A stretch of 24,345 nucleotides of DNA, from positions 1 through 24,345 of the IMG/VR virus record IMGVR_UViG_3300032331_000114. One strand, written 5' to 3'. A program made the translations under genes and the position numbers. This DNA is from a virus. A model generated the notes under the pieces. That model saw nothing but the letters and a program-made list of their open reading frames with translations, did not search any database and was not told the origin of the DNA. Shown here in pieces: positions 1-4,545 of the stretch (position 1 is the stretch's first letter; each line of letters starts with the position of its first letter).

Positions 1-96
1 AGTTGCTGCTGTGTTAGTTGCTGCTGTGTTAGTTGCTGCTGTGTTAGTTGCTGCTGTGTTAGTTGCTGCTGTGTTAGTTGCTGCTGTGTTAGTTGC
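1..96 (-). repeat. 15-bp tandem repeat encoding NTAAT
   Basis: Six complete copies of AGTTGCTGCTGTGTT (plus-strand reading) run from base 1 to 90, with a partial seventh to 96. On the coding strand each unit reads AACACAGCAGCAACT, giving Asn-Thr-Ala-Ala-Thr, so the repeat stays in frame with the partial gene. The copies are identical, which suggests recent expansion. The array is cut by the window edge, so its true copy number is unknown. Confidence 0.95.
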
Positions 97-990
97 TTTA
101 ATAGCGTTAGCAGCGTTAACAGCATCTTGAATGACTCCACCAAGTGCATAACTTCTTTGGCCTCTAGTAGAAGATTCTCTAGACGCTAACAGTTGACCTA
201 GAGCACTAAAAGCTCCTGTTAAGTCAAGCTCATCTTCTTCTGCGGGTTTATCTTCTTGTGGTTTACCTCCGTTGTTGTCTAGCATTTTTTTAGTCATGTA
301 TGCTTCAGTTAAAGAAGGGGCAGTAAAAACACCAAGCTCACTCACTGTTGCACCGGGAATACCGAAAGCAGCGGTAGTAAGTCCCTGACCACCTCCCATC
401 GAAGCTAAATTGGGAGCACTTGGTAAACCCATTCCTGTACTAGCAGAAGAAGCTGCTAAATTATAACCCTCACCTAGTGCAGGTGTTTGAAGCCCTAAAC
501 CAGATCCTGCTCCAGAGCTAAGAGAATAAGTGCCGGAGGAAGCAGGAGGTAGAGTCATTGTTTCTACACCAAGCATACTACTGCTTGTCACTGGAGCCGT
601 TGTCACGCCAACACTTGCATTAGGTAGAGACGCTGTTTCTATACCAGCCATACTACCACCTGTCACTGCACTAGTTTCAGCAGCACCTTCGGCAGCACCA
701 GCGGCTGCTCCCTCAGTGCCATAATAATATCCATAGGTCAGTGCAGCAGCAGCAACAACAGTTGCCCAACCGCCGGGTACAACGTCTCTTACTGTTGAAT
801 CAATCCACTCACCAGCGTCCTCAACAGCGTTTTTACCAGCCGTCCATGTAGGCTTTATAACATCGTTGTAAATGGGCTTTACAACATCGTTGAAGACGGG
901 CTTTACAACAGCATTGTAGGCAGGTTTTACAACATCGTTGTAAGCTTTTTCAGCAATTTTGACAGGGTTTATATCGTCCCAAAAACTCAT
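1..990 (-). CDS. Probable internal/ejection virion protein with peptide repeats (partial, 3' end missing)
   Basis: An open frame of 330 codons starts at ATG 990-988 (MSFWDDINPVKIAEK) and leaves the left edge without a stop. Residues 16-47 are four tandem octapeptides of the form (A/V/I)(Y/F)N(D/A)V(V/I)KP, followed by TW. A hydrophobic Ala/Gly stretch with GYYYGTEGAAAG follows around residues 90-120. Two similar copies of a G(I/V)ETxxLPxAS block then appear, then an acidic stretch (EDKPAEEDELDL), a YALGGV motif near 283, and a tail of NTAAT pentapeptides. I do not recognise a named family. Its place after the lysis genes, its low complexity and its amphipathic/hydrophobic N-terminal half fit an internal virion or DNA-ejection protein, but that is inference. 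It could also be a fibre-associated protein. Confidence 0.8.
   Translation of the reverse strand, partial: MSFWDDINPVKIAEKAYNDVVKPAYNAVVKPVFNDVVKPIYNDVIKPTWTAGKNAVEDAGEWIDSTVRDVVPGGWATVVAAAALTYGYYYGTEGAAAGAAEGAAETSAVTGGSMAGIETASLPNASVGVTTAPVTSSSMLGVETMTLPPASSGTYSLSSGAGSGLGLQTPALGEGYNLAASSASTGMGLPSAPNLASMGGGQGLTTAAFGIPGATVSELGVFTAPSLTEAYMTKKMLDNNGGKPQEDKPAEEDELDLTGAFSALGQLLASRESSTRGQRSYALGGVIQDAVNAANAIKATNTAATNTAATNTAATNTAATNTAATNTAAT
850..945 (-). repeat. Four 24-bp repeats encoding an octapeptide (xYNDVVKP)
   Basis: Four consecutive 24-base units encode AYNDVVKP, AYNAVVKP, VFNDVVKP and IYNDVIKP near the N terminus of the left-edge protein. The units differ at several bases but keep the protein pattern, so the repeat appears kept by selection on the peptide rather than newly copied. 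A regular eight-residue period with Pro at each end suggests a chain of short helices or a binding array. Confidence 0.9.
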
Positions 991-1938: not shown

Positions 1939-1940
1939 AT
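1911..1940 (-). other. Possible 9-codon leader ORF
   Basis: ATG at 1940-1938 overlaps the stop of the M15 peptidase gene (TAATG) and opens a frame reading MDYIMSLKA before a TAA stop. It ends 23 bases before the HExxH gene start. The second Met lies in the duplicated start sequence. It may be a remnant of the duplication, or a short leader that hands ribosomes from one gene to the next. There is no independent evidence of translation. Confidence 0.3.
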
Positions 1941-2407
1941 TAAGCAACAAGTCCATTTAAATACACTGTCTTACCATTTTGTTTGGTTGCTGTCAACTCC
2001 TGTTTCTTAAGGTTTTTAGGGTCGTAGGAAACATGAACCCATCCGCTGTCAGGAATACCGGGAGTGTAGAATTCAAGGATGAGTTGTGTATATTCTAAAT
2101 TGTCCATAATCCACTGAGCCAACTCAGCATTAGCTACACCGGGTATTTCTATATCGGCTGCTTGGCCCTTGCAATGGTCTGAAGTTTTTGATCCTCCGAC
2201 TGCTGCGTTACTTTCCGGAGAGCGATAGGCACTATTAACTTTAACACCTGTTTTATAATGATCTCTAATTGGTTGCAATACTTTCTCACAAAGGATTTTT
2301 AAAGAAGCTTGTGCTTCGGGTGTGGGAGTATTGTCTAAGCCCAAGCGTAGGGCTGTCTCACTCTTACTAAGCTCATGTAAGGAGAAGTTAGCGGATAGTT
2401 GGGTCAT
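1940..2407 (-). CDS. M15-family peptidase, endolysin (L-alanyl-D-glutamate or D-Ala-D-Ala type)
   Basis: A 155-residue protein with the Peptidase_M15_3-type pattern: SAYRSPESNAAVGGSK (59-74), SDHCKGQAADIE (76-87) and GWVHVSYD (122-129). H78, D85 and H125 match the zinc ligands (SxHxxGxAxD and WxHxS). These enzymes cleave peptide cross-links or stem peptides of peptidoglycan, and this gene sits next to spanin and membrane-protein genes, so it is the likely lysis enzyme. It has no signal peptide, so release would need a holin. AAGGAA precedes the start, and the start lies inside the end of the Rz gene (20-base overlap). Length is usual for a single-domain phage M15 endolysin with no separate cell-wall-binding domain. 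Confidence 0.93.
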   Translation of the reverse strand: MTQLSANFSLHELSKSETALRLGLDNTPTPEAQASLKILCEKVLQPIRDHYKTGVKVNSAYRSPESNAAVGGSKTSDHCKGQAADIEIPGVANAELAQWIMDNLEYTQLILEFYTPGIPDSGWVHVSYDPKNLKKQELTATKQNGKTVYLNGLVA

Positions 2408-2870
2408 TTATTTTTTCCTTAATTTCGTTATATTGGTTTATACAAACATTCAATTTACGTATTGCTGTATCTCCTTCTGCTGCTATGGCGATAAGAGATT
2501 CAGCAACTTTTCTGTCAAGTTCGGCACGTGTTTCTCTTGTGTCACTTCCGCTGGTAAGGGCGGCATCTGTGGTGGGTTGTACACTACAGTTGGTGGTTTG
2601 GGTGGTGACAGGAATGAACAGCTTGTGTTCACCAGAGCTAACAGCAATACGGAGATCAGTAATTTTCTTTTGGGCATTTTGTTCATTTTTTCTTAATGTT
2701 TCAGCATATGTAGTTGCTACAGTGGTCAGTTGTTTTTCAGTGTTTCGTGCCATATCATTAGCTTTAACCACTTCTAAAGCTGTCTCTACTCCTTTGTCAT
2801 AGCCACCTTTCCAATAGCCCCCACCAAAAGCAAAAACAAATAAAGCTATACTCAACAACAAATTACGCAT
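2388..2870 (-). CDS. Rz: Rz-like inner-membrane spanin (i-spanin)
   Basis: Predicted 160 residues starting at Met 2870: a hydrophobic N-terminal segment (LLLSIALFVFAFGGGYW, about 4-20) then a long, charged, helical periplasmic part with a Cys near the middle and another near the end. This is the usual Rz architecture: anchored in the inner membrane and joined to Rz1 to fuse inner and outer membranes in the last step of Gram-negative lysis. I prefer the start at 2870 because GAGGA lies upstream and the ATG overlaps the previous stop as ATGCGTAA, a pattern used elsewhere here. An in-frame ATG at 2891 would add seven residues but lacks a clear binding site. The Rz1 gene lies wholly inside it. 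The spanin pair indicates a Gram-negative host. Confidence 0.85.
   Translation of the reverse strand: MRNLLLSIALFVFAFGGGYWKGGYDKGVETALEVVKANDMARNTEKQLTTVATTYAETLRKNEQNAQKKITDLRIAVSSGEHKLFIPVTTQTTNCSVQPTTDAALTSGSDTRETRAELDRKVAESLIAIAAEGDTAIRKLNVCINQYNEIKEKINDPTIR
2483..2686 (-). CDS. Rz1: Rz1-like outer-membrane lipoprotein spanin (o-spanin), nested in Rz
   Basis: A 67-residue frame lies fully inside the Rz gene in another frame. It starts MNKMPKRKLLISVLLL, a lipoprotein signal with positive charges and a hydrophobic core, and reaches a Cys at 23 in LVNTSC. That is a weak lipobox because Asn sits where Leu is usual. The mature part is Pro-rich (SPPKPP, NPPQMPPLP), as in known Rz1 proteins, and short. 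Nested Rz1 genes are known in lambda-type phages. Its expected role is the outer-membrane half of the spanin complex. Start could also be Met4 (2677). The combination of nesting, signal and proline content makes the call fairly strong despite the imperfect lipobox. Confidence 0.8.
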   Translation of the reverse strand: MNKMPKRKLLISVLLLALVNTSCSFLSPPKPPTVVYNPPQMPPLPAEVTQEKHVPNLTEKLLNLLSP

Positions 2871-3192
2871 CAGTGGTTTTTCCTCTGACATAAGCTTGAG
2901 CAGCCATAAACGCTACGACAATGGTTCCCATAGCAGCACAATAGGTTGTGGCTAGTCCATTCAAAGCATTCACTTTTTCTAGAGATACAAAAGCAGAAGC
3001 TAGATAGGCTATGACAACAGGAGGAAGCACTAAAGCAGCCCACGCCATAATGCGTTGCTGGTCTTGCATCTTGTCCATATTCTCAATCATCAACATACGT
3101 TCTGACTTAGCTAACTCAGTATCAGTGATGACACCATCATGATTAGTGTCAAACTCATTGTACGTAGAATCTTTCTCTAATTGCTTATTCAT
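2863..3192 (-). CDS. EF-hand plus two-transmembrane protein (candidate holin)
   Basis: Predicted 109 residues from ATG 3192, chosen because AAAGGA lies nine bases upstream and the ATG overlaps the previous stop as ATGAATAA. Residues 15-26 (DTNHDGVITDTE) form a complete EF-hand calcium loop with acidic or Asn residues at positions 1, 3, 5 and 12 and Gly at 6. A charged helix follows, then two hydrophobic segments at about 48-69 and 80-102 and a short basic tail. Size, two membrane passes and position beside spanins and endolysin fit a holin. Similar EF-hand/membrane proteins occur in marine phages as far as I recall, without a proven role. Calcium sensing by the lysis pore is an attractive but untested inference. 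Confidence 0.85.
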   Translation of the reverse strand: MNKQLEKDSTYNEFDTNHDGVITDTELAKSERMLMIENMDKMQDQQRIMAWAALVLPPVVIAYLASAFVSLEKVNALNGLATTYCAAMGTIVVAFMAAQAYVRGKTTDA

Positions 3193-3352
3193 CTTTTTGT
3201 TTCCTTTCTTTTTGTTCAACCTGTCTTCTTAACTTTTCAACTTTCTCAATCTGTACTTTTGTTTCATGTTTCATTTCTAAAACATCAAGATATAAAAAGC
3301 CAAGCAGTGGAAGTAACAATGCTATCAATACACAAGCTGCTATCCATCCCAT
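3185..3352 (-). CDS. Small single-pass membrane protein with coiled-coil tail
   Basis: Predicted 55 residues: MGWIAACVLIALLLPLLGFLY gives an N-terminal membrane segment (about 3-21), followed by a strongly charged helix (VEKLRRQVEQKERKQKDE) likely to be coiled coil. I place the start at 3352, where TAATG couples it to the stop of the preceding gene, with GAGG just upstream. A longer in-frame reading back to 3475 would overlap the preceding gene by 124 bases and its added segment is probably not translated. It stands in a row of membrane genes before the spanins, so a part in lysis (pinholin, antiholin or accessory) is possible. No family recognised. Confidence 0.72.
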   Translation of the reverse strand: MGWIAACVLIALLLPLLGFLYLDVLEMKHETKVQIEKVEKLRRQVEQKERKQKDE

Positions 3353-4050
3353 TATGTCCTCGCCAGTTTTCCTACGAATAGAAGCCACATCCAGAGGTAT
3401 GCTATAAGGATTAGGGACATTACGAGATATGCCGACTTTTGCTGAAGATCCCTTTTTTCCTCTCGCCGTTGCCATTGTTTATATCTTTCTTGAGCCTCTT
3501 GTTTAAGTCTAGCTTGTTCTTGTTCCTCTTGAATTACTTCTCTCATTTCAAACACAGAACTATATAAAGCACCCATCTCTGGAGGACTTTGATACACCAT
3601 TGTTTCTCTAATGGTGATTTCTAATTCAGCCATTTGCTGCTGTGCCATCACTCTATTAAGAGCAGCCTCCATATGATTTTGAGTAGGCTCGTATATGTTT
3701 TTAGACTTATCCTCTTCTTCTCTTATGTGTGCAGCTAGCTGCTCTTGAATTTTAAAAAACTCTGTTAAGTTTTTGACAATATCAACTTTAACTTGAGTTT
3801 CATTAACAGCAACATAATCAGCTTTTTTAGCTTTAGCCACAGATTTTTTAATTTGTGGTTTAGGTTTGTTACCAAAGAAATTAAGAAGCTGTTGCCAAAA
3901 TCCACGCATCTCTTTGCCAATGGCAACAACTTCATCAGCAGTGTTTTTAATTTCAACAAAAGATTCTTTAGCTTGTTTATAAAGTTCACACCCAGCTTGT
4001 ATATTCTTGACAAGACCTGCTGCAAGTAAACAAAGGCTGATTGGATCAAT
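3352..4050 (-). CDS. Membrane-anchored coiled-coil phage protein, apparent ATT start
   Basis: Predicted 232 residues if translation starts at ATT 4050-4048. The N terminus would read (M)DPISLCLLAAGLVKNIQAG, then CELYKQAKESFVEIKN, and run unbroken into the frame from the first in-frame ATG (3909; MRGFWQQLLNFFGN). GGAG lies six bases before the ATT, and the upstream gene stops one base before it, so the space would otherwise be unexplained. I recall related phage proteins beginning MDP(I/V)xxxLA, which supports the long form. The middle is helical and charged (EEQEQARLKQEAQERYKQWQRREEKRD); a C-terminal membrane segment is SAYLVMSLILIAYLWMWLLF. Role unknown. Whether ATT is a true start, a mutation or a sequence error cannot be told here. 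Confidence 0.75.
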   Translation of the reverse strand: MDPISLCLLAAGLVKNIQAGCELYKQAKESFVEIKNTADEVVAIGKEMRGFWQQLLNFFGNKPKPQIKKSVAKAKKADYVAVNETQVKVDIVKNLTEFFKIQEQLAAHIREEEDKSKNIYEPTQNHMEAALNRVMAQQQMAELEITIRETMVYQSPPEMGALYSSVFEMREVIQEEQEQARLKQEAQERYKQWQRREEKRDLQQKSAYLVMSLILIAYLWMWLLFVGKLART

Positions 4051-4051
4051 T

Positions 4052-4261
4052 TTAAACTCCTATAAGTTTCTTTAAAAACTCAGCAGCAACTCCGGGGCCA
4101 AACAATACAGCCGTCATTACAGCATACAAAAGATATTCAATCTTGGTTATGCGTTTATCACCTTCTTCAAAAGACTTTTGAATGGCTGCATATCGCTGAG
4201 CACATACTTCTTCATGTGTCATAAGCTTAGCTTCTGTTTCAGATATTAGTTTATTATTCAC
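4052..4261 (-). CDS. Small single-pass membrane protein, holin-like or accessory lysis protein
   Basis: About 69 residues. The start is a GTG: either 4264 or 4261. I prefer 4261 because AGGAG then lies seven bases upstream and GTGA overlaps the previous stop by four bases. The N-terminal half is charged and helical (THEEVCAQRYAAIQKSFEEG, then DKRITKIEY) and the C-terminal half is a membrane segment (LLYAVMTAVLFGPGVAAEFL) followed by KKLIGV. This layout, amphipathic helix then one membrane pass, recalls XhlA-type accessory lysis proteins, but sequence identity is not evident. It stands at the head of the membrane-protein block, directly after a fibre-linked gene. Confidence 0.75.
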   Translation of the reverse strand: MNNKLISETEAKLMTHEEVCAQRYAAIQKSFEEGDKRITKIEYLLYAVMTAVLFGPGVAAEFLKKLIGV

Positions 4262-4545
4262 CACGGTACTCCTGTAGCTGCTACTGGGTTTTGCTTTGCA
4301 ACAAGGTGAGACTGAAGGCCAGCTTCAATATCTGACGCTTCCAGATTAGACTTGACCCACCCAAGAACTTGTTCTTTAGTAAGTTCTTCATAAGGTGTAA
4401 AGGTGTCTCCACGCTCAACCCCCACTGAGCCAGATGTGCTTACTGATTGATTACCATCCATAACGACACAACGCCAATAAACATTTATGACTAAGCCATC
4501 GGAAAGTTTACGATCAAGTTGTGTGATTGTCCAAGTTGTTTCCAT
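4258..4545 (-). CDS. Small conserved phage protein after the tail fibre (DUF7936-like)
   Basis: A 95-residue soluble protein: TWTITQLDRKLSDGLV at 4-19, a beta-rich middle (VYWRCVVMDG), then FTPYEELTKEQVLGWVK and an ending AKQNPVAATGVPW. The TWTI-QL start, the LTxxxVxGWV motif and the NPxxATGVPW ending match a family I recall, probably DUF7936, usually next to phage tail-fibre genes. AGGAG precedes the ATG by five bases. Function is unknown; a fibre-associated or assembly role is suggested by location only. No membrane segment or catalytic motif is visible. Confidence 0.82.
   Translation of the reverse strand: METTWTITQLDRKLSDGLVINVYWRCVVMDGNQSVSTSGSVGVERGDTFTPYEELTKEQVLGWVKSNLEASDIEAGLQSHLVAKQNPVAATGVPW

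Follow-up and report, generated by a model that had tools for sequence, protein, structure and literature searches.

A two-pass phage membrane protein with a conserved EF-hand loop, often encoded beside lysis genes, is a candidate holin or holin partner with a putative cytosolic calcium sensor

The window, i.e. the whole stretch of DNA analysed here, is a 24,345-base fragment classed as a virus record. Its minus-strand genes run from high to low coordinates, and a reading of the ORF list, rather than a search, suggests that the terminase, portal, coat-protein and long tail genes come first. The lysis block lies near the end. This block encodes, in order, an XhlA-like protein, a tail-anchored protein (type c7), a 55-aa protein, a membrane protein with an EF-hand loop (hereafter the EF protein), an i-spanin with a nested o-spanin, and an M15 endolysin (Table 1). 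Spanins and an endolysin had been named as neighbours of the EF gene in the original prediction, and the PHROG matches (phrog_2466, phrog_3198 and phrog_894) agree; the 55-aa protein, the start of which coincides with the stop of the upstream gene (TAATG), gave no PHROG match. From the 55-aa gene through the endolysin consecutive genes overlap, the EF gene being overlapped on both sides with the i-spanin start inside its 3' end, and these overlaps suggest coupled translation. The EF protein is the sole small protein of the window with two predicted transmembrane (TM) segments; three further one-TM proteins in the cassette have no assigned role and count against reading the EF protein as the holin.

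Table 1. Features of the lysis block of the window, in gene order.
Feature	Coordinates	Strand	Description
XhlA-like small protein	4052..4264	-	70 aa; one C-terminal TM; weak match to phrog_37133
Tail-anchored one-TM partner, c7 type	3352..4050	-	about 232 aa; probable ATT start; begins I-D-P-I...
55-aa single-TM protein	3185..3352	-	begins MGWIAACVLI...; overlaps EF gene start by 8 bp
EF-loop two-TM protein	2863..3192	-	109 aa; EF loop at residues 15-26; predicted TM1 about 46-68 and TM2 about 79-101
EF loop codons D15-E26	3115..3150	-	DTNHDGVITDTE; from translation, conservation and shuffle test
Rz-like i-spanin	2388..2891	-	167 aa; phrog_2466, E = 6e-16; 29 bp overlap with EF gene
o-spanin candidate	2483..2686	-	67 aa; nested in i-spanin, other frame; phrog_3198, E = 6e-4
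M15 peptidase endolysin	1940..2407	-	155 aa; PF08291, E = 2.7e-19; phrog_894, E = 1.8e-41; overlaps i-spanin end

The c7-type gene has an apparent ATT start, one base past the upstream stop (AGGAG-TTTAAA-ATT-GAT-CCA), and the same ATT with its Shine-Dalgarno sequence is present in the relatives L001 and L003. ATT is a rare start codon, and gene callers would miss it. The product resembles, by its start and layout, a partner protein found at other loci (c1), which starts MIDPV... where the window protein starts IDPI..., both being tail-anchored with one TM. Positions 1-105 of the window hold a tandem repeat that encodes NTAAT repeats in the ORF at 1-990 (minus strand).

The ORF of the EF protein is real on the minus strand and its product has 109 residues (MNKQLEKDSTYNEFDTNHDGVITDTELAKSERMLMIENMDKMQDQQRIMAWAALVLPPVVIAYLASAFVSLEKVNALNGLATTYCAAMGTIVVAFMAAQAYVRGKTTDA); a reading-frame check of the plus strand over the same interval found no coding, with stops throughout. 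Residues D15 to E26 form a canonical 12-residue EF loop, of pattern D-x-N-x-D-G-x-I-x-x-x-E, and agree with the pattern of the superfamily (D1, D/N3, D/N5, G6, an aliphatic residue at 8 and E12). The translation thus bears out the complete loop (DTNHDGVITDTE) that had been described at this place. A strict EF loop occurs in 1 of the 59 window ORFs of at least 60 aa, that of the EF protein, and arises in 12 of 200,000 shuffles of this protein; a chance origin of the loop was therefore rejected. The Pfam EF-hand models align to the correct residues at sub-cut-off scores, the best being PF13202 (E = 0.0017), and the window protein does not reach the gathering score (best 18.2 bits vs 25.9). Calling the protein an EF-hand is accurate for one canonical loop with a short entering helix and does not extend to a full EF-hand pair. 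Downstream of the loop, hydropathy reveals two hydrophobic segments, which together with the predicted helices support the two membrane segments described after the loop; the juxtamembrane residues are D44-Q46-R47-M49-W51. No known family was found for the EF protein in Pfam, PHROGs or NCBIfam, phrog_27150 apart. This PHROG was matched by 41 of 66 family members (best E = 8.4e-12), the window protein itself reaching it at E = 0.006 only.

Viral contigs were scanned with the EF protein itself, with its relatives from phages and with an alignment. This gave several hundred relatives, and 395 loci, four of them phage records, were analysed. Named phages with the EF protein are Limnohabitans phage DC31, the Roseobacter phages CRP-1, CRP-9, CRP-207, CRP-345 and CRP-810, Pelagibacter phage HTVC008M and Methylophilales phage Melnitz, and every phage match is annotated as 'hypothetical protein'. 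The family thus spans phages of Limnohabitans, Roseobacter, SAR11 and OM43, in freshwater and marine settings. With regard to a host-gene origin, bacterial genome contigs yielded no relatives when searched with the window protein, and the family profile matched three MAG contigs only.

Within this family, conservation is highest in the loop. It is complete at 391 of the 395 loci, the remaining four being cut by the contig end. The 391 members with an uncut N-terminus show no variation at loop positions 1, 5, 6 and 12. They carry D or N at position 3, V or I at position 8 and T or S at position 9, while positions 2, 4, 7, 10 and 11 are free to vary; in all, 121 distinct loops occur. Fixed ligand positions together with variable non-ligand positions are the pattern expected of metal ligands and not of a sequence motif. 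In CRP-810 and CRP-345 the loop uses DLNGNG, a different and equally good ligand set. Eight members at 19-62% identity to the window protein share six invariant positions, M1, D15, G20, E26, E37 and Q46, so that D1, G6 and E12 of the loop are among the positions kept down to 19% identity. A bias of the search toward the loop was considered and rejected, since a query with the membrane part only still gives the loop in 82 of 83 sequences (from the viral scan plus three genome matches). Relatives with a broken loop, which would have spoken against the original prediction, were looked for among 474 informative relatives, and the single one that departs is the exception among these membrane-only matches, with E replaced by Q at position 12. 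The entering helix is missing in some relatives, those of CRP-1, CRP-9 and CRP-810 beginning at or near the loop. By comparison of the sequences the EF gene is under strong purifying selection (pS 0.82-0.90 vs pN 0.12-0.16 by region), these values yielding no per-region dN/dS ratio because synonymous sites are saturated.

Lysine and arginine residues, counted together over 66 members, number on average 2.6 in the 15 residues preceding TM1, against 0.7 in the stretch that joins the two TMs and 3.0 beyond TM2. By the positive-inside rule, this distribution places both ends and the EF loop in the cytosol, i.e. a predicted N-in/C-in topology, and supports the cytosolic location of the loop that had been proposed. 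The AlphaFold2 model, built from 66 sequences, is of moderate confidence (mean pLDDT 79, pTM 0.46) and contains a short helix at residues 10-13, then the loop, an unbroken helix at 24-65 that contains TM1, and a helix at 71-108. The model thus predicts a single helix that serves both as exit helix of the loop and as TM1. The family profile matches calmodulin-type calcium-binding proteins in the PDB (best E = 2.7e-7). No significant fold match was obtained in the PDB or BFVD; the weak PDB fold matches are mostly EF-hand proteins and include 1cta (E = 6.7), a peptide with one EF site that forms homodimers with calcium.

Compared with the EF-hand superfamily (calmodulin, S100 and the troponin C site III peptide 1cta), the EF protein has in common the 12-residue loop with all ligand positions and the exit helix, and differs by its single loop, its short or missing entering helix and the fusion of its exit helix to a TM helix. 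The class II holins, such as pinholin S21 of phage 21, are likewise small, with two TM helices, and encoded beside an endolysin and spanins, as the EF gene is in the window but not in its T4-like relatives. Their layout of two TMs with N-in/C-in orientation is shared by the EF protein according to prediction (hydropathy, charge and model). No sequence match to them was found, however, and the EF protein has an acidic cytosolic N-terminus of about 45 residues with the EF loop; we know of no described holin that carries such an N-terminus. No curated holin family was matched above cut-off by the window protein or by family members. PF07332 (Phage_holin_3_6, Actinobacterial Holin-X) aligns weakly to the membrane part of 10 of the 66 members, with E values no higher than 0.01 (lowest 9.4e-5) and short of its gathering score, one fully listed member having 19.4 bits vs a cut-off of 28.4; to our knowledge, no EF loop has been reported for that family. 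A calcium-binding phage lysin, LysGH15, is reported to have an 'EF-hand-like' site (PMC4022735); there the site is in the endolysin enzyme, whereas that of the EF protein is in a membrane protein. The open papers searched contained neither an EF-hand holin, nor an ion sensor in a holin, nor a description of the EF-protein family.

A lysis gene (endolysin or spanin, same strand) lies within 2.5 kb of the EF gene in 162 of the 230 loci that have at least 2.5 kb on both sides, which are not a random sample because they were chosen by similarity; after clustering, the proportion is 15 of 25 clusters at 70% identity and 7 of 10 at 60%. As a guide to the chance rate, 5 kb would by our estimate cover roughly one tenth of a genome of 50 kb. 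The endolysins near the EF gene are of unrelated kinds, namely M15 (two types), GH108 and GH19, and Limnohabitans phage DC31 keeps the order XhlA-like, c1, EF, spanin and endolysin. In the complete genome of CRP-1, and in that of CRP-345 with its last 500 bases excepted, two predicted TMs are found in no protein of 60-220 aa other than the EF protein and a spanin. A lysis role is thus supported by gene neighbourhoods that contain several unrelated families of endolysins and spanins, and by the lack of another small multi-TM candidate besides the spanin in CRP-1 and nearly all of CRP-345. The description of the EF protein as a membrane protein of the lysis block stands to this extent. Because some members lie outside lysis cassettes and beside a recognised holin, it is not established as 'the holin' of the whole family.

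We consider the family to be best read as holins or holin partners with a cytosolic calcium sensor. Calcium binding by the EF loop is very probable and a role of the EF protein in lysis is likely, while its being the main holin of the window phage is an evenly balanced matter. The full reading that we prefer, a late holin-type lysis protein with a cytosolic calcium sensor, falls just short of that balance, and control of lysis by calcium is held more tentatively still.

The main rival is that the EF protein is a lysis accessory and not a pore former, i.e. a calcium- or leak-sensing antiholin or holin partner that restrains or releases another membrane protein, possibly the tail-anchored c1/c7 or the XhlA-like protein encoded just upstream. 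Several loci agree with this. In CRP-810 the EF protein, a GTA-type holin encoded directly after it and a GH108 endolysin stand in a row; this GTA_holin_3TM protein (PF11351) likewise belongs to the membrane proteins encoded in lysis cassettes of Roseobacter phages and is distinct from the EF protein, with three TMs by family definition and no EF loop. At the loci L152 and L129 the EF gene is followed by a multi-TM protein (c103) and then by a GH108 or GH19 endolysin, and in 135 of the 230 loci, some of them without nearby lysis genes, c1/c7 is no more than 2.5 kb away from the EF gene. Against it, CRP-1 and CRP-345 offer no other small multi-TM holin as a target, although one-TM proteins could serve. 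On balance we regard an accessory role as somewhat unlikely.

A role outside lysis is less probable again. The EF protein would then be a general phage membrane protein, found among lysis genes because it is expressed late. It could be a component of the virion or of DNA injection, lining a host-membrane channel with calcium, or a factor that alters host calcium or membrane physiology. The placements that speak for it are those of the T4-like phages: in HTVC008M and Melnitz the EF gene lies between gp51 (baseplate hub genes) and the tape measure, an arrangement found in 20 of the 230 loci including related contigs, and in other T4-like contigs it lies elsewhere, in auxiliary regions. Likewise phrog_27150, the only PHROG matched by many members, has no function assigned. 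These T4-like placements also count against the holin reading, as does CRP-207, in which the EF gene lies near the terminase and upstream of it, with another holin-like protein of three TMs about 26 kb away. Against a role outside lysis, the location of the gene differs among T4-like phages, and most clusters adjoin lysis genes while the endolysin type changes. A loop that permanently holds magnesium or calcium as a structural ion for the fold of the cytosolic domain, with no regulation, would show the same extreme conservation and is nevertheless very unlikely, given the low free calcium on the predicted cytosolic face, the continuity of the exit helix with TM1 in the model and the E at position 12, which in EF loops favours calcium over magnesium.

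Returning to the holin-type protein with a calcium sensor, the timing of holins is usually ascribed to their accumulation in the membrane and to the membrane potential. The near-invariant loop and the usual place beside lysis genes suggest that phages may also use calcium in timing the bursting of the host. At resting cytosolic calcium the EF loop would be empty or half filled. Once the membrane starts leaking, calcium from outside, which is millimolar in sea water, would enter and fill the loop. Once filled, single EF loops tend to associate in pairs, and we propose that neighbouring molecules would thereby be drawn together; as the exit helix continues as TM1, the change in the loop could pass straight into the membrane helices. 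A first small leak would so become an all-or-none event, with release of the M15 endolysin and action of the spanins next, calcium acting as a trigger rather than a brake. Such a calcium-gated holin, in which calcium influx makes the molecules pair and open, in phages of abundant aquatic bacteria, is a doubtful proposal at present. If it were true, the first membrane damage, or calcium let in by another phage or agent, would set off prompt lysis, and the copies in T4-like pelagiphages and methylophages would be the holins of those phages, for which none has been named. Should calcium set the time of lysis, burst size could differ between sea water and fresh water for a chemical reason. The loop makes the calcium idea testable by one or two point mutations.

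The family is common in phage contigs and provides a concrete holin candidate where none has been named, as in Melnitz. The authors of that genome name no holin, propose curli pores as a pinholin analogue and do not mention the EF-hand protein (PMC9004378). For phages of the HTVC008M and Melnitz type the candidacy is a lead and not a result. Close to the EF gene, HTVC008M, Melnitz and one further locus (L396, L397 and L146) carry a gene resembling adenylate/guanylate cyclases and one for a protein with curlin repeats.

Other genes recur around the EF gene. At the loci L237, L306, L315 and L131, genes of the secreted c15/c16 type and one for a coiled protein with a single TM (c3) stand beside it. 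The c3 protein of CRP-207, gp73, is annotated as 'putative lysozyme'; by inspection it appears to be a one-TM coiled protein, its near relative has no lysozyme match, and it was not counted as a lysis gene. Additionally, in Roseobacter phage CRP-5, where the two-TM EF protein was not found, a lytic transglycosylase (754-1515 of L401) ends in an EF loop of its own (DVDKDGKVTKAE) and adjoins a holin-like protein.
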